Below, piece by piece: positions 1 through 58,612 of a stretch of DNA of 59,966 bases (positions within the stretch are counted from its first letter, which is position 1; each line of letters starts with the position of its first letter). The translations under genes and the position numbers were made by a program. The stretch is from assembly GCA_023667765.1 (NCBI GenBank), contig JAMOZS010000009.1, positions 1 through 59,966 on the forward strand, in the 5' to 3' direction. The notes beneath the pieces are model-generated. The model ran no database searches. It was not told where the DNA came from and saw nothing but the letters and a program-made list of their open reading frames with translations. The stretch comes from Roseburia sp. (GTDB taxonomy: Bacteria > Bacillota > Clostridia > Lachnospirales > Lachnospiraceae).

Positions 1-940
1 CATTTAAGGAAGCTACTATCAAAACCGGACAGGTCACCTCTTTTGCATATTTATCGGATGGGAATGGATTTTTCACAAAATATTTCAGAGGGCCATAAAA
101 AATGTTTAAAACACTGTTATATAAACTGATTCCATTATCGAAGGGCGCAACTAATACCAGTTTTTCAACATCATGTCCGGAGCATAGATAAGCGGCTACG
201 CCTGTTCCAAGACTGAAACCTTCTACTATTATGCCATTTTTACCATAATACTCATCATTACTGATAGAATCATATATGATATCAGCCATTTGAAGTATTT
301 CGTCATATTTGACCGAGCCATCGCTGAGCCCATAACCGGGATAATCTATCATAATCCAATTATAGGACTCCAGATATCCGGCGTCCAGATTACAAAAAAA
401 GGAAGCAGATGATTGAGCGTTGCCACCAAAATACAGTATCGTAGGAGACTGCTCCTTTGGACAACGGAAGCCCCATCCCCGGTACTGGGTGTCACCGTAT
501 TTTATACATATTTCTTCAAAACCTTCTTTTTCCCTTTCGGCTAGTTCACTGTGGGAGTACATATCAAAAGATGGATAATATAACAAATGATTCTGAATCT
601 GAAAAAACAAGGTAAATAAAAATATAAATGTAAAAGATAAAGCGACAGGTAATGTCATGAAAGGATGTTTTCTGATAAGCTTGCATATCCGGGAGCTCCA
701 TGTAAGCACCCCTCTTTTTTTACATATCCTATTAATAGGGTACCAGATGATTGCTAATATGAAAACGGGTATACTACAGATACAAATATAAGCAATGTTA
801 TCAAAGGCAATGGGCATGCCGGACAGAGGGTTTTCGCGGTTTCCTACAATATATCCGGCAGCCCGCAGAAGCATAAGCGGAAAGGATATTATAAATGTAA
901 GGTAAACCAGATTACAGGTTATAAGAAAAAATTTTTTCAT
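1..940 (-). CDS. Membrane-anchored alpha/beta hydrolase, 3' end outside the window
   Basis: I translated the minus strand from an ATG at 940; the frame stays open to base 1, giving 313 residues with the C-terminus missing. The first ~130 residues hold three hydrophobic segments, so the enzyme is probably membrane-anchored with its catalytic domain outside. That domain shows YFGGNAQSS (oxyanion-hole region), DYPGYGLSDG and the nucleophile elbow GFSLGTG, with Ser as the expected nucleophile. This order matches the Bem46/ABHD13-like alpha/beta hydrolases. The acid and His of the triad would lie beyond the edge. It starts 1 nt after the stop of the upstream 81-residue gene, so the two are probably co-transcribed. 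The substrate cannot be told from sequence. Confidence 0.85.
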   Translation of the reverse strand, partial: MKKFFLITCNLVYLTFIISFPLMLLRAAGYIVGNRENPLSGMPIAFDNIAYICICSIPVFILAIIWYPINRICKKRGVLTWSSRICKLIRKHPFMTLPVALSFTFIFLFTLFFQIQNHLLYYPSFDMYSHSELAEREKEGFEEICIKYGDTQYRGWGFRCPKEQSPTILYFGGNAQSSASFFCNLDAGYLESYNWIMIDYPGYGLSDGSVKYDEILQMADIIYDSISNDEYYGKNGIIVEGFSLGTGVAAYLCSGHDVEKLVLVAPFDNGISLYNSVLNIFYGPLKYFVKNPFPSDKYAKEVTCPVLIVASLN

Positions 941-44338: not shown

Positions 44339-45409
44339 TTATGAGGTAAGGCTTATTGTCACGGCATAATCCTCCAGGATTTCTTCGGACTCCGGAAGTT
44401 CATATCCGTTCTCATCCCGGGCTTCGCGTATGGGAATCAGCGTTATTGTGGGAGAAGTGGCGTCGAAGCCGATAATCTCTAAATCCTGGGAGAAGCTTAC
44501 GCTTGTGCTGGAGGCTTTGTGTTCCGCCGGCGTGCAGGATACGGAACGCATCCATTCATTGGGGGTGAGCCTGTTTCCCGAGGCATCTGCCAGAATATAA
44601 TAGCCCCATTGCAGAAGCTCCGCTATGGAATCGTCTTTTACCTCCCAGTCCAGGTGCAGGTTGATGACGGAGGGCGCTATGCTTACATCATAAGAAACGA
44701 GTTTTCCGAAATCCAGTTCCATCTCATTGCCTGAAACCTGTGTGGAAGTGCCAAGCTTGGGAGATTCCACAGTAAAGGAGTAGTCGGTTTTGTTATGGCT
44801 GTCGGTGTAAAGGCTTACTTTCACATTTATGGTATCTGTGTCGGTTTTTTGCAGCGTCTCGTCTACGATGGTGACCTTGCACTCATAAATTCCGCTGTCC
44901 TCTACGGTTTCTGCCACATATTCCAGGCGGCTGTCAACGCCGTTGATGTAGACATGGTCTCCCAGGTCGAAATAATCGCCCGCCGGGTCGGCCCAGAACA
45001 TCAGGGTGGAGCCGTCATAGTAGGCGTCCGTTACGGTAAACGGAGGCTCCGCTTGTTTGGCGTAGTCTGTTGCGCTCTTTTTCGCAGTCAATCCCGATGG
45101 AATGGGATATCCGATTTCCCCTTTGTGAACAATGGATTCTTCGACGGTCTGAGCATTGTGCTGCATTCCGGCAATCCACTTCTGGAATACCGGCAGATTG
45201 GCGGCAGCGGCAGTCCCTCCTGCCAATAGCAGACAGGCGGCGGCAGGTATCAACGCTTTAAAGGGTTTGAAAGCTTTCTTTTCTCTATTTTTGCGGGCAG
45301 CAGCGGAATGCGCATATGCCTCCTGCTCTACCATTCGACGAAAACGCTCGGGCGTCTTGGGAAAGCTTTTGTTTAGTTCCGCTGCAAAATCTTCATGATA
45401 TGTTTTCAT
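44339..45409 (-). CDS. DUF4179-type anti-sigma-like membrane protein
   Basis: 356 residues. The N-terminal ~45 residues are cytoplasmic and include the HEDFAAELNKSFPKTPERFR motif seen in DUF4179 proteins. One transmembrane helix follows (LIPAAACLLLAGGTAAAA), then an extracellular beta-rich part. Its start overlaps the end of the sigma-factor gene by 17 nt, the usual coupling of an ECF sigma with its regulator. The role of holding the sigma factor until a surface signal arrives is inferred. Confidence 0.85.
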   Translation of the reverse strand: MKTYHEDFAAELNKSFPKTPERFRRMVEQEAYAHSAAARKNREKKAFKPFKALIPAAACLLLAGGTAAAANLPVFQKWIAGMQHNAQTVEESIVHKGEIGYPIPSGLTAKKSATDYAKQAEPPFTVTDAYYDGSTLMFWADPAGDYFDLGDHVYINGVDSRLEYVAETVEDSGIYECKVTIVDETLQKTDTDTINVKVSLYTDSHNKTDYSFTVESPKLGTSTQVSGNEMELDFGKLVSYDVSIAPSVINLHLDWEVKDDSIAELLQWGYYILADASGNRLTPNEWMRSVSCTPAEHKASSTSVSFSQDLEIIGFDATSPTITLIPIREARDENGYELPESEEILEDYAVTISLTS

Positions 45410-45872
45410 AATGTTCCTCCTCCATGATACGGCGTAAATCTCTTCGCCCCCGACACAGTCGACTTTTTACGGTTCCTGCGGGAATACACATGATTTTCGC
45501 AATCTCTTCTATGGAATATCCCTCCAGATAGTACAGTACCAGTGTCAGACGGGTCTCTTTTTTCAGCATATTCAAGGCGTTATACAAATCTGAATAGTCC
45601 GGAGCGCCAGCCCCTTCTTCTGGTTCCGTCAGCAGAGTCATTGTTTTTTCTCGCCTTTTCAGGATGCCGTAACACTCGTTTATCAGTATTCTGGTCAACC
45701 AGGTTTTAGCATAGGCTTCCTGACGCAGAGTGTTCAATTTGGCGAAGCCTGTGGCGATAGCTTCCTGTACGGCATCCTCACAATCTGTATCATTTTTCAG
45801 CATGGCCTTTGATATGCGGTAGAGGCTGTTCGTGCCGGCAATTACCATATTGGCAAAAGCTTCCTTGTCCAT
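45393..45872 (-). CDS. ECF sigma factor
   Basis: 159 residues from ATG 45872, with GGAGGTG upstream; the longer frame to 46040 lacks a site. Region 2: NSLYRISKAMLKNDTDCEDA and WLTRILINECYGILKRREK. Region 4: YYLEGYSIEEIAKIMCIPAG then TVKSRLCRGRRDLRR. SigW/SigV-like in size. Co-transcribed with the DUF4179 gene. Confidence 0.92.
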   Translation of the reverse strand: MDKEAFANMVIAGTNSLYRISKAMLKNDTDCEDAVQEAIATGFAKLNTLRQEAYAKTWLTRILINECYGILKRREKTMTLLTEPEEGAGAPDYSDLYNALNMLKKETRLTLVLYYLEGYSIEEIAKIMCIPAGTVKSRLCRGRRDLRRIMEEEHYENIS

Positions 45873-46157
45873 TGTGTTCACCTCCTCCTCGTCTTTCGTT
45901 TTATACCTATTAGAGAAAGAAATAAGAAAAAGGGTTGCAGGTTTCTGAGAAAATTTTGTTGAAGCTTTGTATTGAGTCCGTACAAAGGGACACAAAAAAG
46001 GGTAGTATGACTTTCTGAAGATACCAGATTGAAAAGCCAAACCTGTACTTTGACAACAGAAAATCGTTAAAAAGTCTATTTTATTCTTGCAAGGATGCTT
46101 CTGATAGTGGATGGTATTTATATCGATAATTGTCTGCCGGAAGGACCATCATAAATG
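45873..46157. other. Intergenic stretch between sigma factor and CRISPR regulatory RNA
   Basis: No gene is seen. It must hold the promoter of the sigma-factor operon (minus strand), but I cannot name clear hexamers. Confidence 0.5.
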
Positions 46158-46316
46158 AAAACATCGATTGCATAACGGAATACAATCGATGCTTATCACA
46201 GTTTATATTTCAATCCACATGCCGGAACAGTGAATCGCATGAGGCAGTCGTTACCGAATGAATTTCAGCCGGATAATCTGCACCTGTGCGTCTGCATGCT
46301 CGGGCATGACATAAAT
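46158..46316 (-). ncRNA. Putative CreR-like crRNA-type regulator of the cas operon
   Basis: Seen in the sequence: on the minus strand a TATAAT (46327-46322) is followed ~90 nt later by a degenerate repeat ending GTGGATTGAAAT (46218-46207). Next comes a guide-like stretch whose first 17 nt (46206-46190) match the cas3 5' UTR at 16 positions. Then a hairpin CATCGATTG-N12-CAATCGATG (46191-46162) runs into TTTT. Known: Cas-regulating RNAs (CreR) in other type I systems use short partial guides to make the effector complex repress cas genes without Cas3 cutting. Inferred: this is such an RNA, with a terminator hairpin as 3' end in place of a second repeat. The -35 is weak, and no transcript is proven. 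Confidence 0.7.
46207..46232 (-). repeat. Solitary degenerate CRISPR repeat
   Basis: The minus strand reads CACTGTTCCGGCATG then TGGATTGAAAT. The last 12 nt, GTGGATTGAAAT, are identical to the 3' end of the array repeats. The CACT..CCG.CATG part resembles the first stem arm. The second arm (GAGTGAG) is missing; a CCTCATGC arm upstream can pair with GCATGTGG instead. Confidence 0.75.
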
Positions 46317-46388
46317 ACTATATTATATTCGAGATGAAAAAACAAGAAAAAGGGCAAAACATAAAAAGGAAAATTTTGACAGAGGTTA

Positions 46389-46417
46389 TTGACAGGGGTC
46401 ATATAAAATGATATTAT
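46389..46417 (+). promoter_or_regulatory. Promoter of the cas operon
   Basis: TTGACA (46389-46394), 17-bp spacer, TATTAT (46412-46417). The start site would be near 46424, so the guide-matched site at 46439-46455 lies at about +15 to +32. Confidence 0.85.
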
Positions 46418-46438
46418 GTCGATAAACAAAAATAATAT

Positions 46439-46458
46439 TGCTTATCACATTTTATGAA
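46439..46458 (-). promoter_or_regulatory. Protospacer-like target with TTC PAM in the cas3 5' UTR
   Basis: Minus strand TTC (46458-46456) is directly followed by a 17-nt sequence (46455-46439) that matches the guide at 46206-46190 except at guide position 6. TTC is the PAM of type I-C systems. Beyond position 17 the match ends, so only a seed-plus pairing is possible. Confidence 0.75.
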
Positions 46459-46485
46459 CAAAATAAAGAGGGGGATGAGAGAGGA

Positions 46486-48960
46486 ATGGGGGAAAGGTAT
46501 TTTGCCCATATTCGAAACAGGGAGAATGGAGAGAAAGAGTTTCAATCTGTAAAACGGCATTGTGAAGCTACTGCAAAATATGCAAGGGAGTGTCTGGCAC
46601 CGGTTTCCCTTGGGGAATCGGCATATTTGGCGGGACTGATTCACGATATGGGAAAGAGAACCGGTGCTTATCAGAATTATATTATCGCATGTGCAGAGGG
46701 AAAAAATCCGCCCAGAGGAAGCGTAAATCATACCTTCGCAGGCGTTCGGCTGTTGCTGGAGAAATTCCATTTAGATGAAAGAGCCGGAGGACGGGAAGAA
46801 AATGAGCGCAGTCTGGTCTGTGAGTGGTTGGCTTTTGCGGCAGGAGCGCATCATGGCCTCTTTGATTGTGTGGATATTCAACATCAATCAGGGTTTCAGC
46901 ACAGAATAAAGAAAGCAGATATTGGTTATGAGGAAGCTGTGCAGGGCTTATGGGAAAACGGATTGTCGGAGCAGGAATTATCTATAAAATTTGAAAGAGC
47001 TTTAGAGGAAATGAAGCCATGTATTTCAAAGATGGCAGTTATGGCACAAAATAGCGGCGCCACAGACAGAAATGCACCGTCTGAGGAATTGTCCTTTTAT
47101 TTTGGCTTTTTTGCAAGACTGCTCCTTTCGGCAGTAATAGAGGGTGACCGCAGAGACACGGCGGAGTTTATGAATGAATTTGTGTATCCGCAGTTTCCGG
47201 ATAATAAAGAGGAATTTTGGAGCCGGGTGCTTTTTGGGGTAGAGGCGAAGCTGAATGACCTGGAGGACAGGACTCCGATACAGGCGGCCAGAAGAAAAAT
47301 ATCTAATCAGTGCAGAGCCTTTGCGGAGAATGGTCGGGGCGTTATTCGGCTGAATGTTCCAACCGGAGCAGGGAAAACCTTAAGTTCCCTTCGCTTCAGC
47401 TTGGCACATGCTGCCAAATGGGGAAAATCACGAATACTTTACGTCTCTCCGCTTTTGAGTATATTAGAGCAAAATGCAAAGGTTCTGCATGAGTTTATCG
47501 GGGAGGATAAAATTATCCTGGAGCATCATTCAAATGTTGTTCGGGAGCATATGGATGAAGATGAACTGGATATGCATGAACTGTTTGCGGAAAACTGGAA
47601 TGTGCCAGTGATTATTACAACACTGGTACAATTGCTTAACACCCTGTTTTCTGGCAAAACGACTTGCATTCGACGTTTTCAGAGCTTGTGCAACAGTATT
47701 ATTATAATAGATGAGGTTCAGACGGTTCCTGCTCATATGCTCAGCCTGTTTAACCTGGCAGTAAACTTTCTCGTAGAAATAGCCGGGGTGACAGTCGTTC
47801 TTTGTTCTGCTACTCAGCCCTGCTTTGAAAAAGCGTCCCATCCCATAAATGTACCTATCAGTGATATGGTTCCTTATCAGGAGCAGCTATGGGACAAGTT
47901 CAGAAGAACGAAGATAGCGTATGTCGGAAGCCGCAGCCTGGAGGAAATCCCGGAGCTTGCGTGGGAGATACTGGAACAGACAGATAGCCTGTTGATTGTC
48001 TGCAATAAAAAGGAGGAAGCGGAACGGCTGTTTCATTTTATATCTAAGGAAAATGTGAAATGCGTCCATCTTTCGGCGTCCATGTGTCAGGCGCATCGCA
48101 AAGCTGTGCTGGAGGAAGTGAAAGAGGCTTTGAAACGGATAGAAGAAGCCAAAAAGAAAGGATGCAGGAATATACAAAAACTGGTATGCGTGTCAACTCA
48201 GGTAATAGAGGCAGGAGTAGACATTTCCTTTTCGAGCGTGATACGACTGGCGGCCGGGATGGACAGTGTAGTACAGGCGGCCGGGCGATGTAATCGGAAT
48301 GGGGAAAGCGCAGAGCCCATGCCGGTGTATGTGGTGCGGTGTCGGGATGAGCAGCTGGGATTTTTGGAGGATATAGAAAGAGGGAAGGACGCAACGCTGG
48401 AATTGCTGGAAAACTATGAAGGCGCTCCCGAAAAGTATGGTAACGATTTGACCGGAGACAGAGCAATTGAAGAATACTATCATATATTGTATCGCGAGAT
48501 GAGACAGAAGGTAAAATATGAGGATTTCGTGGTTAAGGAAAATGGGCAGATACTGACGATATTTTCCTTGCTTTCGGATAACAGGGATTTACGGTCGGAC
48601 AGTGATTCGGCAGTCGGGAGTTATATGCTGCAGCAGGCATTCCGACTGGCAGGGAAACTGTTTCAGGTGTTTGACAGGGAGACAACGGATGTGCTGGTTT
48701 CGTATGGGGAAGGAGGGGAGATTATTCAAGAATTATGTTCGGAGCGTGCCGTCTATCAGCCAGTCCGTATGAGAGAATTGCTGGATAAGGGAAAGGCGTA
48801 TACCATTTCGCTCTATCGGTATCAGGTGGAAATTCTGGAGCGTCAGAATGCATTGTATTCTGTTTGCGGCGGCAGGGTCATGGTATTGCAGGATAATTAT
48901 TATGATGAGAATACAGGATTGACCTTATCTGCAGGTGGCAGTACGTTTTTGGAGGAATAG
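46486..48960 (+). CDS. cas3: Cas3 nuclease-helicase, type I-C
   Basis: 825 residues from ATG 46486; the open frame reaches back to 46438, but that part lies in the leader. N-terminal HD nuclease: HC near residue 25, IHDMGKRTGAY (His53-Asp54) and GAHHGLFD. Superfamily 2 helicase: NVPTGAGKTLSSLRF (~291), IIDEVQTVPAHM, VLCSATQP and STQVIEAGVDISFSSVIRLA. It degrades DNA once the Cas5c-8c-7c complex has opened a target. First gene of the cas operon; the leader carries the guide-matched site. Confidence 0.95.
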   Translation: MGERYFAHIRNRENGEKEFQSVKRHCEATAKYARECLAPVSLGESAYLAGLIHDMGKRTGAYQNYIIACAEGKNPPRGSVNHTFAGVRLLLEKFHLDERAGGREENERSLVCEWLAFAAGAHHGLFDCVDIQHQSGFQHRIKKADIGYEEAVQGLWENGLSEQELSIKFERALEEMKPCISKMAVMAQNSGATDRNAPSEELSFYFGFFARLLLSAVIEGDRRDTAEFMNEFVYPQFPDNKEEFWSRVLFGVEAKLNDLEDRTPIQAARRKISNQCRAFAENGRGVIRLNVPTGAGKTLSSLRFSLAHAAKWGKSRILYVSPLLSILEQNAKVLHEFIGEDKIILEHHSNVVREHMDEDELDMHELFAENWNVPVIITTLVQLLNTLFSGKTTCIRRFQSLCNSIIIIDEVQTVPAHMLSLFNLAVNFLVEIAGVTVVLCSATQPCFEKASHPINVPISDMVPYQEQLWDKFRRTKIAYVGSRSLEEIPELAWEILEQTDSLLIVCNKKEEAERLFHFISKENVKCVHLSASMCQAHRKAVLEEVKEALKRIEEAKKKGCRNIQKLVCVSTQVIEAGVDISFSSVIRLAAGMDSVVQAAGRCNRNGESAEPMPVYVVRCRDEQLGFLEDIERGKDATLELLENYEGAPEKYGNDLTGDRAIEEYYHILYREMRQKVKYEDFVVKENGQILTIFSLLSDNRDLRSDSDSAVGSYMLQQAFRLAGKLFQVFDRETTDVLVSYGEGGEIIQELCSERAVYQPVRMRELLDKGKAYTISLYRYQVEILERQNALYSVCGGRVMVLQDNYYDENTGLTLSAGGSTFLEE

Positions 48961-49060: not shown

Positions 49061-49804
49061 ATGGAACATTCTAATATGCAGCATCCTAATATTGTGGAGT
49101 TTCAAGTGTCGGGAGCATATGGCCTGTTCTCTGACCCGATTATGCGTGTAGGGGGCGAGAAATGTACTTATCAGATACCTACTTATGAAAGTATAAAAGG
49201 TATTCTTGCATCCGTATACTGGAAACCTACAATTATCTGGTACATTGATGCAGTCCGGGTTATGAATCCGATTCAGACGGAGGTGAAGGGCATTCGGCCC
49301 ATTAAGTATTATGATGAAAAAAATGATTTAGCCTATTATACCTATCTGAAGGATTGCTGTTATCAGGTGCGGGCGCATTTTGAGTGGAATGAAAACAGAT
49401 TGGAGCTAAAGCAGGACAGAAACGAAAACAAGCATCATGAGATAGCGAAGAGAATGATTCGGAGAGGTGGGAGAAGGGATGTATTTCTGGGCACCAGAGA
49501 ATGTCAGGGTTATGTGGAGCCTTGTATATTCGGAGAGGGAAAAAGCGCTTATGAGGATATTCCGGAGTTGAGTTTCGGCCTGATGTATCATGGAATGACT
49601 TATGCGGATGAAGCTTATTCCGAGGATACAAGGGGAAAGATGACCGCTAATTTCTGGTATCCGGTAATGAGGAAAGGCAGTATCTCCTTTTTGAGACCGG
49701 AAGCTTGTCCGCTTCATAAGACCCTTAGAGAAATGAATAAGAAGTCTTTTGGAGTAATGCAGAAGAATTTTTCGGGTTTGCAGGAATGGGGAGAGGTGAT
49801 GTAA
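49061..49804 (+). CDS. cas5c: Cas5c (Cas5d), crRNA-processing subunit
   Basis: 247 residues, RBS GGAGGAATAG. Start region VEFQVSGAYGLFSDPIMRVG and KGILASVYWKPT are typical of Cas5 in type I-C. In this subtype Cas5 replaces Cas6 and cuts the repeat RNA, then stays on the 5' handle. It ends directly against cas8c (stop followed at once by ATG). Confidence 0.93.
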   Translation: MEHSNMQHPNIVEFQVSGAYGLFSDPIMRVGGEKCTYQIPTYESIKGILASVYWKPTIIWYIDAVRVMNPIQTEVKGIRPIKYYDEKNDLAYYTYLKDCCYQVRAHFEWNENRLELKQDRNENKHHEIAKRMIRRGGRRDVFLGTRECQGYVEPCIFGEGKSAYEDIPELSFGLMYHGMTYADEAYSEDTRGKMTANFWYPVMRKGSISFLRPEACPLHKTLREMNKKSFGVMQKNFSGLQEWGEVM

Positions 49805-51652
49805 ATGGGAATTATGCAGAAAGCTTTAGAGGCATATGAGTGTCATTCCGAATATGCCGGGCAGGCCAGAGAAGAACATGAGACGCTGGCGCCGGTGGCG
49901 CATATGATTGCCGGTGTACAGATTGAGATTACAGTCAGTGGAAATGGGAAATTTATAGATGCCAAGAGTGTGGATAAACGGAAGATAATTATTCCTGTGA
50001 CAGAGGAATCTGCCGGAAGGACGAGTAAGCCCTGTCCCCATCCATTATGTGAGCAGCTATGCTATCTTGCGCCTTATGAGGAAAAACGTCACGAAATGTA
50101 TCTGGAACAGTTGAAGCAATGGATGGAATCGGAATATACCCATCCGAAACTGGAGCCAATCTATCTATATGTAAAGAGCGGAACCATTTTGCAGGATTTG
50201 GCGGAGGATGGAGTCATCAAGCTGACGGATAAAGGCATTCCTGAAAAAGAAAAGCAAATGGTTTGCTGGCGTGTGATGGGCGAGGAAGCGGGAGAGGGGG
50301 AGTCCAGTGCCTGTTGGCTGGATAAGAAGCTGATTCAGAACTATATATCTTATTACCGGGAAGCTTGTAATAAGGCCGAAAAAGGACTTTGTATGGTTAC
50401 GGGAGAACTGTCTGTCTTGGCAAAACAGCATCCCAAAGGGATAGTTTCCAAGTACGGGAACGCAAAACTTGTTTCGGCAAATGACCAGAAGGGTTTTACT
50501 TACCGGGGAAGGATAACCGAGGATTGGCAGGCTGCGACAGTGGGCTATGAGGTCTCTCAAAAGGCGCATAATGCTCTTCAATGGATAGCGTCGGAACAGA
50601 GGGTGATGTTTGGCGGACGTACCTTCATATGCTGGAATCCTCAGGGGAAAAAGCTGAAGAATCCGGCGGATGTGTTTCTGCAGCAGGATGAGCAGGATGA
50701 GCCTATTACGGAACCGTCTGATTATAAGCAGCAGCTATACAATACCTTAGTAAGCTTTCAGACAAAGCATCAGCTAACAGGCACAGAGACGGCTGTTATT
50801 GCGGCTCTTGATGCTGCCACTACAGGAAGGCTGGCGATGACATATTATAATGAACTGAAGGTATCCGATTTTTTGAAAAGATTATGTGACTGGGATGCAA
50901 CCTGTTATTGGATAAACGGTAAATTTGGAATACAGTCGCCGCCGTTGTGCAAAATAATAAACTGTGCATATGGCACCCAGCGAGAAGAGAAGGGAAGCAC
51001 TCGTATGGTTGCGGACGAGCGGGTTATGTGTCAGCAGATGCAGAAGCTGCTGGATTGCCGGCTTAGGGGAGGGAGAATTCCTGTGGATATAGTACAGGCT
51101 TTAGCAAGAAAAGCTTCAAATCCTCAGGCCTATGAGCGTAATTGCTGGTATCAGATTTTGTATATAGCGTGTGCTGTGATACGAAAGAATCGAAGTGACA
51201 GATATAAGGAGGAATGGACAGTGGCATTAGATGAAAACAATAAGAATCGTAGTTATCTGTTTGGCAGATTGCTTGCAATCGCCGAGAAAGTGGAAGAGGA
51301 CGCTAACAGGAGGAGCGGCGCTGCCTCGGAGGATAAGAATGAAAGTAAGGGAACGAAATCCACAAATGCGTCCAGAATGCAGGCAGTTTTTTCCAAGAGG
51401 CCTATGTATGCCTGGAGAATCCTGCATGAAAAGCTGGAACCTTACTATCGTCGGTTAAAGCCGGGAAGCATACAGTATTATAAAAGATTAATAGCGGGTA
51501 TAGCGAATCATTTGGATGAGAAAACCTCGGAGTTGAATCATCCGCTGGAGGACATTTACCTTTTGGGTTATTACCACCAGAGGCAGGCTTTGTATGGAGC
51601 CAAAGAGCTGGCAGATTCAGATGAGACGGAAGGAAAAGATGATACGAACTAA
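49805..51652 (+). CDS. cas8c: Cas8c (Csd1), large effector subunit
   Basis: 615 residues. Csd1-type sequence (LAPVAHMIAGVQIEITVSGN; AKLVSANDQKGFTYRGRITE). It recognises the PAM and positions the effector. Its stop codon is formed by the first bases of a short palindromic repeat (51649). The operon continues 68 nt later. Confidence 0.92.
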   Translation: MGIMQKALEAYECHSEYAGQAREEHETLAPVAHMIAGVQIEITVSGNGKFIDAKSVDKRKIIIPVTEESAGRTSKPCPHPLCEQLCYLAPYEEKRHEMYLEQLKQWMESEYTHPKLEPIYLYVKSGTILQDLAEDGVIKLTDKGIPEKEKQMVCWRVMGEEAGEGESSACWLDKKLIQNYISYYREACNKAEKGLCMVTGELSVLAKQHPKGIVSKYGNAKLVSANDQKGFTYRGRITEDWQAATVGYEVSQKAHNALQWIASEQRVMFGGRTFICWNPQGKKLKNPADVFLQQDEQDEPITEPSDYKQQLYNTLVSFQTKHQLTGTETAVIAALDAATTGRLAMTYYNELKVSDFLKRLCDWDATCYWINGKFGIQSPPLCKIINCAYGTQREEKGSTRMVADERVMCQQMQKLLDCRLRGGRIPVDIVQALARKASNPQAYERNCWYQILYIACAVIRKNRSDRYKEEWTVALDENNKNRSYLFGRLLAIAEKVEEDANRRSGAASEDKNESKGTKSTNASRMQAVFSKRPMYAWRILHEKLEPYYRRLKPGSIQYYKRLIAGIANHLDEKTSELNHPLEDIYLLGYYHQRQALYGAKELADSDETEGKDDTN

Positions 51653-51678
51653 GGAAACGCTTTAATCAGCGTTTTATG
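51649..51678 (+). repeat. Short relative of the dispersed palindromic element
   Basis: CTAAGGAAACGCTTTAATC followed by AGCGTTTT. It keeps the CTAAGGAA start and the AATCAGCG part of the longer copies in shrunken form. It lies between cas8c and cas7c inside the operon. Confidence 0.6.
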
Positions 51679-51720
51679 TAATAATGATGCAAGTTAAACG
51701 AAAAAAAGGAGGATTCTGCA

Positions 51721-52611
51721 ATGAGTGTACTTGAAAATAAAATTGATTTTGTGGCGGTAGTTTCGGTGAGGAACGCTAATCCTAACGGAGACCCTTTGAA
51801 TGGAAATCGTCCTCGGACAAATTATGATGACTTTGGCGAAATTTCGGATGTATGTATTAAGCGAAAAATCCGGAATCGCATGCAGGATATGGGACAGAGT
51901 ATTTTTGTACAGAGTGACAGTCGTAAAAATGATACATATGACTGTCTGAGTAAGCGGGCGTCCGGTGTGCTGGGTAAGATTAAGGATAAGGAGGAGTATG
52001 CGAAGAGGGCGTGTGAAGAATGGTTGGATGTTCGTACCTTTGGACAGGTGTTTGCATTTAAGGCAACTGATAAAGACGGCGTGTCTGTGGGAGTGCGTGG
52101 GCCGGTTTCGATTCATCTGGCGGACAGTGTTTTCCCGGTAGAAGTGGAAACCATGCAGATTACCAAAAGTGTGAACAGTGAGCCGGGAGAGAAAAAGACA
52201 TCTGATACTATGGGTATGAAGCATTTTGTGCGCTATGGGGTCTATCTGATAAAGGGTACTATTAATGTACAGCTTGCTGAAAAGACCGGTTTTTCTCAGG
52301 AGGATGCAGATGTGATGAAGGAATGCTTACGGACATTATTTGTAAATGACGCTTCTTCAGCCAGACCGGAAGGTTCCATGGAGGTGGTAAAATTATTCTG
52401 GTGGAAGCATCATTGTAAAGAGGGGCAGTATTCTTCTGCAAAAGTACATCGCTCTCTCAAGGTGGAACAGAGAGAGAAAGTGGTACAGCCGGATGGATCT
52501 TTGAATGAAGCGTATCAAAACAATATTGTGATAGCTGACTGCCTGGAGAACTATGCGATTGTGCTTGAGCCCATGGACGGATTGGAGCCGGAAATTATAG
52601 ATGGAATATAA
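51721..52611 (+). CDS. cas7c: Cas7c (Csd2), backbone subunit
   Basis: 296 residues, strong RBS AAAGGAGG. Csd2 signatures: VVSVRNANPNGDPLNGNRPR at the N-terminus, GVRGPVSIHLADSVFPVEVE, and KHFVRYGVYLIKGTINVQLA. Six or so copies bind the spacer part of the crRNA, with every sixth base flipped out. The end overlaps cas4 by 11 nt. Confidence 0.95.
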   Translation: MSVLENKIDFVAVVSVRNANPNGDPLNGNRPRTNYDDFGEISDVCIKRKIRNRMQDMGQSIFVQSDSRKNDTYDCLSKRASGVLGKIKDKEEYAKRACEEWLDVRTFGQVFAFKATDKDGVSVGVRGPVSIHLADSVFPVEVETMQITKSVNSEPGEKKTSDTMGMKHFVRYGVYLIKGTINVQLAEKTGFSQEDADVMKECLRTLFVNDASSARPEGSMEVVKLFWWKHHCKEGQYSSAKVHRSLKVEQREKVVQPDGSLNEAYQNNIVIADCLENYAIVLEPMDGLEPEIIDGI

Positions 52612-53275
52612 GGAAGAGGATTTTTTACAGCTTTCGGGTCTGCAGCATTTTGCCTTTTGCAGGCGTCAATGGGCATTAATCCATATGGAACAGCAATGGG
52701 CGGAAAATTATCATACGGCGGATGGCAGAATCATGCACAAAAATGTTCATGACGGAGATTTTAAGGAAACACGACGAGATTGTATTATTACACGGGCTAT
52801 GCGTATTCATTCGGCAGCTCTGGGGGTGTCTGGAGAGTGTGATGTTTTGGAATTTCATTTGGGAAATAACGGTATTGAGTTGCCAAACAGAGCAGGGCTC
52901 TGGCAGCCATTTCCCGTGGAGTACAAGAGGGGAGCGCCCAAAAGCGATAATTGGGACATGCTTCAGTTGTGCGGACAGGCCATGTGTCTGGAAGAAATGC
53001 TTTGCTGTGACATCCCTAATGGAGCGCTGTACTATGGGGAGACGCATAGACGGCAGGATGTATATTTTGAAGACGCTTTGCGGAAACAGGTCAGAACTCT
53101 GTTTCAGGAAATGCACGGATTGTATTCCAGAGGTATTACGCCAAAGGTTAAGCCTACAAAAGCTTGTAATGCCTGTTCCCTGAAGGAGCTATGTCTGCCG
53201 AAGCTTATGCGGAAAAAATCGGCATCCGGCTACATAAAAGAGCATATGGAGGAAGCGGATGAAACATTTGCTTAA
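52601..53275 (+). CDS. cas4: Cas4 adaptation nuclease
   Basis: 224 residues. RecB-type core with GECDVLEF and PVEYKRGAPK, and Fe-S cysteines: Cys near 21 (FAFCRRQW) and the C-terminal KACNACSLKELC. Cas4 sets PAM and orientation of new spacers. Overlaps cas1 by 17 nt. Confidence 0.94.
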   Translation: MEYKEEDFLQLSGLQHFAFCRRQWALIHMEQQWAENYHTADGRIMHKNVHDGDFKETRRDCIITRAMRIHSAALGVSGECDVLEFHLGNNGIELPNRAGLWQPFPVEYKRGAPKSDNWDMLQLCGQAMCLEEMLCCDIPNGALYYGETHRRQDVYFEDALRKQVRTLFQEMHGLYSRGITPKVKPTKACNACSLKELCLPKLMRKKSASGYIKEHMEEADETFA

Positions 53276-54290
53276 TACGCTGTTTGTAACGACAGAAAAT
53301 GCTTATTTGTCCTTGGACGGAGAAAATGTGGCGGTAAATCAGGATAAGGAAATAAAGGCGAGATATCCGCTGCATATTTTGCAAGGTATTATTTCTTTTT
53401 CTTATGCAGGTGCCTCGCCGGCTTTGATGGGAGCATGCGCGGAGAGAAACATTACTTTGAGTTTTTGTACGCCTTACGGGAAATTTTTGGCCAGAGTTTG
53501 TGGGGAGAGTAATGGGAATGTATTGCTTCGGAGGACGCAGTATCGTATAGCGGATAATCCACTGGCAAGTTGCCGTATTGCCAGAAATTTTATTTTCGGT
53601 AAGGTTTATAATAGCCGAAAAAGTGTGGAACGAACTTTGCGTGACCATAAGTTTCGGGTGAATCAGGAGAAACTGGAGAATTCTGTGGGGCAGTTAAAAA
53701 CCTCGCTTCCGGTTATTGCAGAGGAAACATCGCTGGAATCCTTACGAGGATTGGAGGGCGCTGCCGCCATGGTTTATTTTGATTGCTTAGACGAAATGAT
53801 TTTGAACCATAAAGAAGATTTTTTCTTCCACGGAAGAAGTCGTAGGCCTCCTGCGGACAGATTTAATGCGCTTTTATCCTTTGCTTATAGCCTGTTGGGA
53901 AACGAATGTGCGTCAGCGCTAGAAGCGGTGGGTTTGGATTCTTATGTTGGTTTTATGCACAGGGACAGACCGGGTAGGACATCTTTGGCATTGGATTTGA
54001 TGGAGGAATTACGTCCCTGTTTTGCAGACAGATTCGTGCTGACAATGATTAACAATCGTGCGATTTCACCTGAGGATTTTGAAGTAAGGGAAAATGGAGC
54101 GGTATTGTTAAAGGAACAGGCACGGCGCAGTTTTTTGCGGCAATGGCAGCAGAAAAAACAGGATGTTATTACACATCCCTATCTGGACGAAAAGCTTCCC
54201 TGGGGCTTGGTACCTTATATGCAGGCATTGTTATTGGCCCGATATCTGCGGGATGACTTGGATGCGTATCCTCCGTTTTTTTGGAGGTAA
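53259..54290 (+). CDS. cas1: Cas1 integrase, type I-C
   Basis: 343 residues. Start LNTLFVTTENAYLSLDGENV. The active-site regions are present: LRGLEGAAAMVYFD (Glu) and GFMHRDRPGRTSLALDLMEE (His), with the Asp in the same helix region. Joins new spacers at the leader end with Cas2. Confidence 0.95.
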   Translation: MKHLLNTLFVTTENAYLSLDGENVAVNQDKEIKARYPLHILQGIISFSYAGASPALMGACAERNITLSFCTPYGKFLARVCGESNGNVLLRRTQYRIADNPLASCRIARNFIFGKVYNSRKSVERTLRDHKFRVNQEKLENSVGQLKTSLPVIAEETSLESLRGLEGAAAMVYFDCLDEMILNHKEDFFFHGRSRRPPADRFNALLSFAYSLLGNECASALEAVGLDSYVGFMHRDRPGRTSLALDLMEELRPCFADRFVLTMINNRAISPEDFEVRENGAVLLKEQARRSFLRQWQQKKQDVITHPYLDEKLPWGLVPYMQALLLARYLRDDLDAYPPFFWR

Positions 54291-54364
54291 AAGTAAATTT
54301 TTACCCGGTAGATTTGCGCAAGCATTGTATGATGTGTGGGAAATAGCGCAGAAGGAGGGAAAAC

Positions 54365-54655
54365 ATGTTAGTGCTGATTACATATGATGTAAATACGAAA
54401 GATGCATGTGGCAGTAAGCGTTTGCGACAGATTGCAAAGCAATGCGTTAATTATGGTCAAAGGGTTCAGAATTCCGTGTTTGAGTGCTTGCTGGATGCAG
54501 CTCAATGCCGGGTGTTGCAGGATAAGCTGCTGTCGATTATGGATAAGGAGAAGGACAGCCTCAGATTTTATTATCTGGGCAATAAATATGAAACAAAAAT
54601 TGAACATTATGGCAAGGATGAGGGGTATGCGCCTGAAGGGGTTCTGATGGTTTGA
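54365..54655 (+). CDS. cas2: Cas2, type I-C
   Basis: 96 residues, RBS GGAGGG. Ferredoxin fold with LITYDVNTKDACGSKRLRQI at the start, then NYGQRVQNSVFECLLD. Structural partner of Cas1. Followed directly by the leader. Confidence 0.95.
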   Translation: MLVLITYDVNTKDACGSKRLRQIAKQCVNYGQRVQNSVFECLLDAAQCRVLQDKLLSIMDKEKDSLRFYYLGNKYETKIEHYGKDEGYAPEGVLMV

Positions 54656-54825: not shown

Positions 54826-57800
54826 GTCTCACTCCGCATGGAGTGAGTGGATTGAAATAATAGCACGAAAAGCCTTAAACAATACTTTCCTTGTCTCACT
54901 CCGCATGGAGTGAGTGGATTGAAATATACTGTAGATATTATCCTTAGAATGGTATGTATGTCTCACTCCGCATGGAGTGAGTGGATTGAAATATGTACTA
55001 CCTTAGTCATAACACCATACAATTTTGTCTCACTCCGCATGGAGTGAGTGGATTGAAATATCTGTTTTCAGTTTCTTCATTTCAAGTAATTGGTCTCACT
55101 CCGCATGGAGTGAGTGGATTGAAATAGCACATCAAGCAGATTAGGGATAGTTTCCAAGCGTCTCACTCCGCATGGAGTGAGTGGATTGAAATGATTAAAT
55201 TTATTGAGTATGTGAATGGAGATATGTCTCACTCCGCATGGAGTGAGTGGATTGAAATAAAAATATTTTCCTTGCATTTGGTAACCAATCTGCGTCTCAC
55301 TCCGCATGGAGTGAGTGGATTGAAATATGCGTTAGTTACAATATATCACGGAAAAAACGGTCTCACTCCGCATGGAGTGAGTGGATTGAAATACCGTACC
55401 AGAGCGCAACCATGTACGCTAACGCGTCTCACTCCGCATGGAGTGAGTGGATTGAAATTATCATAGATATCAGTAGATGTCTATAGATATCTGTCTCACT
55501 CCGCATGGAGTGAGTGGATTGAAATAATTATGGAAACAACAGACTGGGAAGAGGTAGCGGTCTCACTCCGCATGGAGTGAGTGGATTGAAATGTTGGATT
55601 GAGACCTTCCTTCCAAAACATCCATAGTCTCACTCCGCATGGAGTGAGTGGATTGAAATAATGTCTGCTCGGTTGTCAGTTCCGCCGTCCGTTGTCTCAC
55701 TCCGCATGGAGTGAGTGGATTGAAATACAAACTCTATTGCATCAGGATCCCAACCATCCGTCTCACTCCGCATGGAGTGAGTGGATTGAAATTTTTCGCT
55801 TTTGGCGTAATTGAAGCCGATAAACTGTCTCACTCCGCATGGAGTGAGTGGATTGAAATAAAAAATCCCCCGTCATAGTCCGCACTCTCCACCGTCTCAC
55901 TCCGCATGGAGTGAGTGGATTGAAATATCAGATACCAGTGTGTAGCCGGAAACCAGACCTGGTCTCACTCCGCATGGAGTGAGTGGATTGAAATACCACC
56001 TAAACGGAAGAGGCTGCGTATACCATACGTCTCACTCCGCATGGAGTGAGTGGATTGAAATAAAATCTAGTATAACAGAAAAATCAAATGGAGGAAGTCT
56101 CACTCCGCATGGAGTGAGTGGATTGAAATGCAAACCTTCCAGCACTCGCAAGTATCAATGCCCGTCTCACTCCGCATGGAGTGAGTGGATTGAAATACCT
56201 TCCTGCCCGTCCAGCCGATAGCTCAGCTTATGTCTCACTCCGCATGGAGTGAGTGGATTGAAATACAAAATGCGGTTGACTATGTATGCCGGGTATGGGT
56301 CTCACTCCGCATGGAGTGAGTGGATTGAAATTCCGAATACGTCTGTTATCTTCAATCTTCATCATGTCTCACTCCGCATGGAGTGAGTGGATTGAAATAA
56401 ATGTATCGCTTTTAAAGACAACATTATAGTAAGTCTCACTCCGCATGGAGTGAGTGGATTGAAATGCTTTCTATACACTTGGCTTTTGCTGTGGCTATGC
56501 GTCTCACTCCGCATGGAGTGAGTGGATTGAAATGCTATAACTAGATATTTTTTTCATATTCTTCTCGTCTCACTCCGCATGGAGTGAGTGGATTGAAATA
56601 CGGGTACTAGAGGGCTTACGAGTGCCCGAGGAAGTCTCACTCCGCATGGAGTGAGTGGATTGAAATAAATGTATCGCTTTTAAAGACAACATTATAATAA
56701 GTCTCACTCCGCATGGAGTGAGTGGATTGAAATAGTAAAAAGACATGTGTTATGATATTGTAAAAGGGTCTCACTCCGCATGGAGTGAGTGGATTGAAAT
56801 CTATACAGTAGGCTTTTGCTGATGAGTGACACGCGTCTCACTCCGCATGGAGTGAGTGGATTGAAATAAAATCTAGTATAACAGAAAAATCAAATGGAGG
56901 AAACGTCTCACTCCGCATGGAGTGAGTGGATTGAAATCCTTCTATCCAAGCGAATACCGTGAAGAAGAGCAGTCTCACTCCGCATGGAGTGAGTGGATTG
57001 AAATACCACCTAAATGGAAGAGGCTGCGTATACCATACCGTCTCACTCCGCATGGAGTGAGTGGATTGAAATAAAATCTAGTATAACAGAAAAGGAGAAA
57101 AAAAGAGTCTCACTCCGCATGGAGTGAGTGGATTGAAATATAGGATGTGACGGAGGAAACACCTGTTGTAGAGGTCTCACTCCGCATGGAGTGAGTGGAT
57201 TGAAATGCTGAAATGTTAATCTCACGCATTGTTTTTAAATGTCTCACTCCGCATGGAGTGAGTGGATTGAAATGGACATTTTTGTTATTGCCAGTAATCA
57301 TGCAGAGTCTCACTCCGCATGGAGTGAGTGGATTGAAATGGAGCACCGGCCAACATTGCGCTTACTGCTCTATACGTCTCACTCCGCATGGAGTGAGTGG
57401 ATTGAAATAGTTTGCGGCTGGGGTTTAATACATCTATATCCGTCTCACTCCGCATGGAGTGAGTGGATTGAAATATGGTGCAATCCTACTATGACGCTGA
57501 TGAAATGGAGTCTCACTCCGCATGGAGTGAGTGGATTGAAATGCAAAGGGTGTGATAGCCGCAAGAGGAAATATATGTCTCACTCCGCATGGAGTGAGTG
57601 GATTGAAATAAATTATTTCCGGTTTTAAAAAGGAGGATACATGTCTCACTCCGCATGGAGTGAGTGGATTGAAATTTTAATATTTGCCAGTATAAAACCG
57701 GCTGGAATGGTCTCACTCCGCATGGAGTGAGTGGATTGAAATGGTGTATTTGACGCATAAACATGATATGCCTGGAGTCTCACTCCGCATGGAGTGAGTG

Positions 57801-58612
57801 GATTGAAATAGATATTACAGCCTACAGCAGGCCAGTGGATAGAGTCTCACTCCGCATGGAGTGAGTGGATTGAAATGGGAGACATTTGAAGAATGGGGCG
57901 AACTTCCAGGTCTCACTCCGCATGGAGTGAGTGGATTGAAATTCTATTATATCAACGCAGCAGATTCAGACCTTGGTCTCACTCCGCATGGAGTGAGTGG
58001 ATTGAAATGTTCCTCCAGCTGTATTCTGCGGCTCTCCATCTCAGTCTCACTCCGCATGGAGTGAGTGGATTGAAATCCGTATCCGCAAAATAAGGTTTAG
58101 CAACGCCAGGTCTCACTCCGCATGGAGTGAGTGGATTGAAATAAATTTGCGGCTTCAAGCGTGTTTCTGCTGCCGCGTCTCACTCCGCATGGAGTGAGTG
58201 GATTGAAATAGATAGTCATAGAACCGCCCGGACACATTTTCCTGTCTCACTCCGCATGGAGTGAGTGGATTGAAATCGCACTATGCTTATTGGCCTGGCA
58301 TGTAAACAAAGTCTCACTCCGCATGGAGTGAGTGGATTGAAATCCCCTTCAAATCTTCCCTTATATCATATACGGATAGTCTCACTCCGCATGGAGTGAG
58401 TGGATTGAAATAGATAGTCATAGAACCGCCCGGACACATTTTCCTGTCTCACTCCGCATGGAGTGAGTGGATTGAAATTTGTCCACCACTTTTTAAATGG
58501 CGCTCTATTCTTGTCTCACTCCGCATAGAGTGAGTGGATTGAAATTTGTCCACCACTTTTTAAATGGCGCTCTATTCTTGTCTCACTCTGCATAGAGTGA
58601 GTGGATTTAAAT
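54826..58612 (+). CRISPR. Type I-C CRISPR array, 57 repeats and 56 spacers
   Basis: Repeats are 33 bp, starting GTCTCACTCCGCATGG and ending GTGGATTGAAAT; the inner CACTCC-GCAT-GGAGTG forms the hairpin. By counting every repeat start I get 57 (first 54826, last 58580). Spacers are 33-37 nt, mostly 34. The repeat is constant except the last two: 58513 has ATAGAG, 58580 also has CTGCAT and TTTAAAT. That marks the distal end and agrees with the leader at 54656. Several spacers recur as exact or variant copies (see findings). Confidence 0.99.

Follow-up and report, generated by a model that had tools for sequence, protein, structure and literature searches.

According to three reviews (PMC13131331, PMC12737573, PMC12948488; here and below, statements drawn from cited papers refer to the excerpts consulted), CreR is a CRISPR RNA (crRNA)-like RNA encoded beside the cas genes of a clustered regularly interspaced short palindromic repeats (CRISPR) system, which partly matches a cas promoter and brings about autorepression. 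One of these reviews names types I-B, I-E and V-A, and another calls CreR widely distributed in type I. The reviews also describe CreA of the CreTA module (type I-B), which leads Cascade to a promoter by partial complementarity and controls a toxin RNA, while Racr designates solitary repeat units of phages that work as anti-CRISPR RNAs (PMC10651486). Here we analyse a stretch of 59,966 nucleotides (nt) from Roseburia sp. (contig JAMOZS010000009.1; the whole stretch is called the window), which holds a type I-C CRISPR locus with cas genes and an array (the system is typed as I-C). On its minus strand, upstream of cas3, lies an element composed of one degenerate repeat, a 17-nt guide and a terminator-like hairpin. 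Judged from sequence, it is very probably a CreR-like self-repression guide, i.e., the source of a short RNA that, bound by Cascade at the cas3 leader, would exert negative feedback without cutting.

A lone 12-mer, GTGGATTGAAAT, at 46218–46207 on the minus strand is the same as the end of the array repeat, and the guide follows directly on its 3′ side. This 12-mer occurs 57 times in the host genome (2.8 Mb, 93.74% complete), 56 times in the array and once at the element. The guide (46190–46206) and the leader (46439–46455) form a direct repeat of 94% identity over 17 nt (16/17), the sole mismatch falling at guide position 6, and TTC stands directly 5′ of the protospacer (46458–46456); NTTC is the protospacer adjacent motif (PAM) given for the I-C system of B. 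halodurans (PMC6546366). A sequence-only reading of this DNA had already pointed to the minus-strand degenerate repeat ending like the array repeat, to the 16/17 match at these coordinates, to TTC on the correct side and to the mismatch at position 6, all of which we confirm. It had also held that such a coincidence is hard to explain by chance, and about 4e-7 TTC-flanked sites with at least 16/17 identities are indeed expected, under independent bases, in the 800-nt leader region (39 TTC sites). When the host genome was searched for TTC plus guide positions 1–15 (positions 6 and 12 free, at most two mismatches), five sites were recovered: the cas3 leader, which is the only mismatch-free one, one site with one mismatch and three with two; a reversed-guide control gave four sites. 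The parts of the element and of its target are the following.

46317..46327, minus strand: TATAAT / TATAGT, putative −10-like element for the guide RNA, read from the sequence and absent from the list of the promoter scan
46297..46310, minus strand: GTC and the 5′ stem arm, forming the 5′ portion of the degenerate repeat (inverted repeat with 12-nt arms, 83% complementary)
46230..46296, minus strand: expanded loop of 67 nt within the degenerate repeat (from the fold and the inverted repeat)
46207..46229, minus strand: 3′ stem arm and crRNA-type 5′ handle TGGATTGAAAT, same as the array repeat end
46190..46206, minus strand: 17-nt guide ATAAACTGTGATAAGCA
46159..46194, minus strand: terminator-like hairpin starting at guide position 13 (15 pairs, 4 of them G-C)
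46389..46417, plus strand: predicted cas3 promoter TTGACA-17-TATTAT with TG before the −10 (11/12 consensus), start near 46425
46456..46458, minus strand: PAM TTC adjoining the target
46439..46455, minus strand: target within the leader of cas3 (+14 to +30 relative to the predicted start)

Related loci were collected through Cas3 searches of 138 genomes of the genus, 397 of the family, 392 of the order and 391 of the class (overlapping sets) and from fetched stretches; a Cas3-based search for related loci in genome_contigs returned no match. Once 20 duplicates were removed, the sample amounted to 142 loci, window included, i.e., 95 window-like loci and 47 from a second I-C clade, of which one typed member (L079) has Cas5, Cas8 and Cas7 scoring as I-C. 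Because E-value cut-offs reached 1e-60 for the family and 1e-85 for the order and the class, this second clade stems from the genus and the family only. The weak genus matches G104, G116 and G128 were left out, and one genome contributed two pieces, L008 and L162. The regions scanned were 88 + 46 upstream of cas3 (−700 to +100) and 89 + 43 between cas3 and cas5. Handles were accepted with at most one mismatch, and the 17 nt after each handle were scored equally at all positions, with no PAM demanded.

The scan yielded 100 handles, 43 in arrays and 57 lone, all 57 of which were kept in the analysis. For 39 of the 57 lone handles, the best site in the same region reaches at least 13/17 beside TTC (32) or TTT (7), and six further ones reach 13 beside other triplets; in the array-spacer control, none of the 43 has a TTC/TTT-flanked match (2/43 reach at least 13 beside other triplets). 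These 39 guides belong to 39 different loci and 31 guide clusters, and their strand is opposite to that of the cas gene in 36 cases; the resulting 39/142 is a lower bound, since contig ends cut several of the scanned regions short. In cross-locus and pseudo-guide controls, limited to TTC/TTT sites, own pairs attain at least 14/17 in 16 of 22 cases, against 0 of 1865 guide-to-other-locus pairs, for a set that left out the L055 array handles, the first of two L034 handles and three related-locus cross pairs. With nothing left out, the larger set has 21 of 1482 cross pairs reaching 13, 12 of these within one guide cluster, and 130 of 11,700 pseudo-guides drawn from these regions attain 13. A chance match was considered as well and is rejected by the own-versus-cross-locus comparisons, the array spacers, the pseudo-guides and the expected-site count. 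As side observations, the TTT-flanked targets are those of L019, L042, L048, L051, L054, L067 and L082, where TTT may be a weaker PAM that serves binding alone, or the mark of another PAM preference, and L034/L081 (G350) show, upstream of cas3, two tandem repeat ends 17 nt apart ahead of the guide.

Across the 39 pairs, mismatches at positions 1 to 17 number 0, 1, 1, 1, 2, 23, 0, 1, 1, 1, 0, 27, 2, 3, 2, 5 and 11, respectively. Positions 6 and 12 together are mismatched in 50 of 78 cases versus 20 of 546 for the rest of positions 1–16 (Fisher p 3e-37; 0/20,000 permutations; these figures are nominal because the loci are partly related), and position 17 in 11 of 39. From position 18 to position 30, 22 to 34 of the 39 pairs are mismatched, which is approximately the level of unrelated bases. 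The peaks at 6 and 12 fit a Cascade that flips out every sixth base, as reported for the guides of Class 1 effectors (PMC11127173); in the seed of E. coli Cascade, moreover, the sixth position need not match (PMC4288178). Guide and site thus seem to have been kept matched by an effector whose reading covers three segments of 5 bases and ends near position 17.

Ten comparisons of related guides (non-independent) reveal 15 core differences with a matching counterpart in the target; the differences at positions 6 and 12 have no such counterpart (4 in the guide only, 4 in the target only, 2 in both). For instance, L074 and L089 covary at positions 1, 4 and 17, L076 and L077 covary at position 11, and L097 and L098 have a common guide and targets that differ at position 12 only. 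The autorepression put forward in the sequence-only reading is supported by the 39/57 matches, the 31 clusters and the mismatch pattern, the transcript, its loading and the repression being presumed.

The degenerate repeat of the window is more complete than had been described before: its arms (46308–46297 and 46229–46218) are complementary at 10 of 12 positions, 67 nt apart, and the −10-like element ends 6 nt ahead of the GTC. In the predicted fold of 46314–46156 (z −2.99; 3/200 shuffles as stable), CAUGCC and GGCAUG form a stem next to the handle, which stays single-stranded together with guide bases 1–8. The hairpin at 46194–46159, with its T-rich tail, is the sole terminator-like site found in 46000–46600 (mean of 0.2 in shuffles), and it stands where a second repeat, of which there is none 3′ of the guide in the window, would be expected in an array. 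The 3′ end of the target lies 31 nt ahead of the ATG at 46486, the target being inside the 61 nt between the predicted start and this ATG. The loop insert at 46230–46296 is 67 nt long, and several other loci have short loops. Furthermore, the −35 region of cas3 (46376–46401) carries a tandem TTGACAGAGGTTA / TTGACAGGGGTCA. Searched against Rfam, 45900–46600 gave one match at E up to 1 (SNORD35), far under the gathering score.

This layout recurs across the matched loci. A stem-loop after the guide outscores every one of 39 shuffled sequences (each locus shuffled once, by single bases) in 31/39 loci, with a median start at nt 22 from the guide start, and a second handle within about 100 nt (8-mer, at most one mismatch) is absent from 37 loci, L077 and L081 having a weak match. 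The −10 elements of the guide genes are mildly enriched (25/39 versus a shuffle mean of 15.05), and a simple stem search finds GTC ahead of the 5′ arm in 21/39. Regarding location, 20 of 24 elements in the window-like clade are upstream of cas3, and 11 of 15 in the second clade are between cas3 and cas5. With promoters being predictions in all loci, 7 of 14 minus-strand targets begin +3 to +14 past the best predicted start: besides the window (+14..30), these spans are +8..24 in L027, +9..25 in L079, +12..28 in L080 and L105, +13..29 in L107 and +3..19 in L090. Some plus-strand targets, e.g., in L075, L081 and L159, abut the predicted −35 from upstream. A steric block is plausible, though not uniform across loci, and is not put more strongly because the promoters are predicted rather than mapped. 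Two groups of loci stand apart. In L003/L073 (G090), a like element sits some 1.25 kb ahead of cas3, its guide at −1248 and its TTC-flanked target at −1151, with positions 6 and 12 mismatched, and perhaps controls another gene. In L136, L141, L146 and L149, the elements are about 1 kb upstream of cas5, where the cas3–cas5 gap is long enough to hold one more gene, possibly the one under control.

We propose that a short minus-strand RNA would begin near 46310 and comprise one degenerate repeat, an intact 11-nt handle, the 17-nt guide and an intrinsic terminator. Cas5c would cleave below the repeat stem, so that the processed RNA would begin with UGGAUUGAAAU, and Cas5c, Cas8c and Cas7c would take it up as a crRNA. 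The complex would then bind the TTC-flanked site just past the cas3 transcription start and block RNA polymerase. Since the guide turns into the hairpin, pairing would stop at three Cas7 segments (positions 1–5, 7–11 and 13–17), and this short pairing should leave Cas3 unlicensed to cut; with shortened spacers, type I Cascade is reported to bind and repress without recruiting Cas3 (PMC10758571). The outcome would be a negative feedback on the cas operon, probably relieved once array crRNAs or anti-CRISPRs occupy the effector, as the reviews say of CreR. With less assurance, we lean towards a broader view, in which a separate class of self-regulating guide RNAs serves I-C systems in numerous families within one bacterial class, these RNAs having one degenerate repeat, a 17-nt three-segment guide and a terminator in place of the second repeat. 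The hairpin would make a truncated, binding-only Cascade, aimed at the cas3 leader or at the cas5-cas8-cas7 promoter, and lineages would have replaced guide and site but kept the layout.

Several observations weigh against self-repression by such a guide. Transcription, processing, loading, repression, the absence of cutting and relief are all steps that we infer from sequence, and the guide-RNA promoter of the window has no good −35. Exact searches with positions 6 and 12 free did not find the window guide in genome_contigs or viral_contigs, nor did a search with up to three mismatches in the other genomes among the 138 of the genus. Maintenance of the match is accordingly a result for the family of elements, and not for the window pair. 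Moreover, six close Cas3 relatives (L031, L032, L037 and L093–L095; 47–50% identity) show a lone handle neither ahead of cas3 nor ahead of cas5, and the distribution of the element is scattered (39/142 loci; 27 presence/absence changes on a Cas3 tree of 135 loci). Target placement varies too: 14 targets lie past the predicted start, five of these at a distance of over 100 nt, 9 overlap the promoter and 16 precede the −35. The sequence-only reading had expected guide and leader bases to change together in relatives; this stands for the 15 mirrored core differences, but not for 6 others found in the target only, nor for 3 present on both sides without matching. It had likewise regarded a relic kept after loss of the match as telling against a function: 39 of 57 lone handles keep a PAM-flanked match, but 18 fail. 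Some of these failing handles resemble chance handles, and others are relic-like repeats with no TTC/TTT-flanked match in the scanned region, namely those of L055 (cas3–cas5 gap), L083, L130, L131 and L133. L158 has a 17/17 match, but beside CTC, and the near misses beside TTC in L026 (cas3–cas5 gap) and L114 are mismatched at 6 and 12, then from 13–15 on.

The same absences in close relatives, the failure to find the window guide elsewhere and the relics that lack a matching site, along with the degenerate repeat and its expanded loop, might suggest a decayed old array, i.e., a lone repeat and a self-derived spacer that are out of use. Yet decay predicts an even spread of mismatches, strongly at odds, for the family taken together, with 50/78 at positions 6 and 12 versus 20/546; hairpins sit behind the guides and 31 guide clusters retain the match, and we regard decay as very unlikely. 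It is just as improbable that the element encodes a Cas-guided repressor whose main role lies elsewhere, e.g., in the control, after the manner of CreTA, of an unnoticed toxic RNA or small gene instead of cas3. The logic of CreA and CreT in the reviews is alike, and both the L003/L073 pair, some 1.2 kb upstream of cas3, and the targets of L136, L141, L146 and L149, about 1 kb upstream of cas5, would suit such a role. In the window, however, only 61 nt separate the predicted start from the cas3 ATG, with the target within them, and the cas3 leader is the sole mismatch-free site of the host genome.

Even less credible is an ordinary small RNA pairing with the cas3 leader RNA without any Cas protein, although the sequence of the window guide complements the sense strand of cas3 past the predicted start, which would permit such pairing, and its RNA would finish in a terminator hairpin typical of small RNAs. 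In 25 of the 39 loci, the target has the opposite orientation, which gives the guide the sense of the mRNA and makes pairing between the two impossible; besides, antisense pairing would account neither for the adjoining TTC nor for the mismatched positions 6 and 12.

If Cascade-guided self-repression is true, type I-C, which has been called the second most abundant subtype (PMC6546366), would join the systems that resort to it. The 39 natural guide–target pairs would then reveal, by evolution alone, which positions are needed for binding, with 6, 12 and those beyond 17 being dispensable. A terminator-ended guide would suggest a simple natural way to part binding from cutting, and a compact repression design for native I-C systems, in which cas expression may rise upon removal of such guides.

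The other features of the locus surround the element as listed below.

45393–46040, minus strand: divergent reading frame upstream of the element, which sits between this frame and cas3
46486..48960, plus strand: cas3 (type I-C), start taken as the ATG at 46486, the longest reading in the list of open reading frames being from the TTG at 46438
49061..54655, plus strand: cas5c, cas8c, cas7c, cas4, cas1 and cas2, with family searches for cas5, cas8, cas7 and cas4, and with cas1 and cas2 named from gene order and matches among fetched loci
54826..58545, plus strand: CRISPR array with 56 copies of the repeat end, repeat GTCTCACTCCGCATGGAGTGAGTGGATTGAAAT

Within the array (54826–58545), near-duplicate spacers follow the repeats at 56029, 56835 and 57040, at 55962 and 56972, and at 56366 and 56634, which suggests repeated acquisition or internal rearrangement.

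When compared to known systems, the window guide is not flanked by the two cognate repeats of an ordinary array spacer. A solitary repeat outside an array is shared with Racr, but Racr is a phage-borne anti-CRISPR, whereas here the repeat belongs to a cas-locus element with a matched guide. Guiding by partial complementarity is as in CreA, but the latter controls a toxin RNA, and the target here is the cas3 leader; in the window, the predicted promoter at the target leads straight into cas3 rather than driving a toxin, and no toxin gene was seen between the target and cas3. In a study from 2021, Workman et al. are said to have found Cas9 autoregulated by a natural single-guide RNA, the short guide sending the effector to its own promoter and preventing cutting; that system is reportedly of type II, with a single protein and a guide taken from the trans-activating CRISPR RNA. 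Similarly, Shmakov et al. reportedly described in 2023, in Nucleic Acids Research (NAR), CRISPR-derived RNA regulatory elements, i.e., standalone repeats or mini-arrays near cas operons whose spacers partly match cas promoters, and a standalone repeat with such a spacer is what the present element would have in common with them. Among the literature matches listed, no title or beginning of an abstract names a single-repeat, terminator-ended form in I-C, and earlier I-C cases, e.g., in Liu et al. 2023 or Shmakov et al. 2023, are possible.

The closest counterpart is CreR (Liu et al. 2023, Cell Host Microbe), with which the element has in common a crRNA-like RNA at the cas genes, a partial match to the promoter region and, presumably, autorepression. 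Its position in the cas locus, its degenerate cognate repeat with an intact handle and its PAM-flanked partial complementarity to the leader are those of CreR, and the guide–target match is kept across loci at the family level (39/57, 31 clusters). The window does not show the mini-CRISPR form, with two repeats around the guide, a trait that rests on one review's word “mini-CRISPR” and may not define the class; for this reason, we describe the element as working like CreR, a variant rather than a member. What appears new relative to CreR, as the reviews describe it, is the combination of type I-C, a single repeat, a terminator-like hairpin that stands in for the second one and a 17-nt guide, with a match of about that length.

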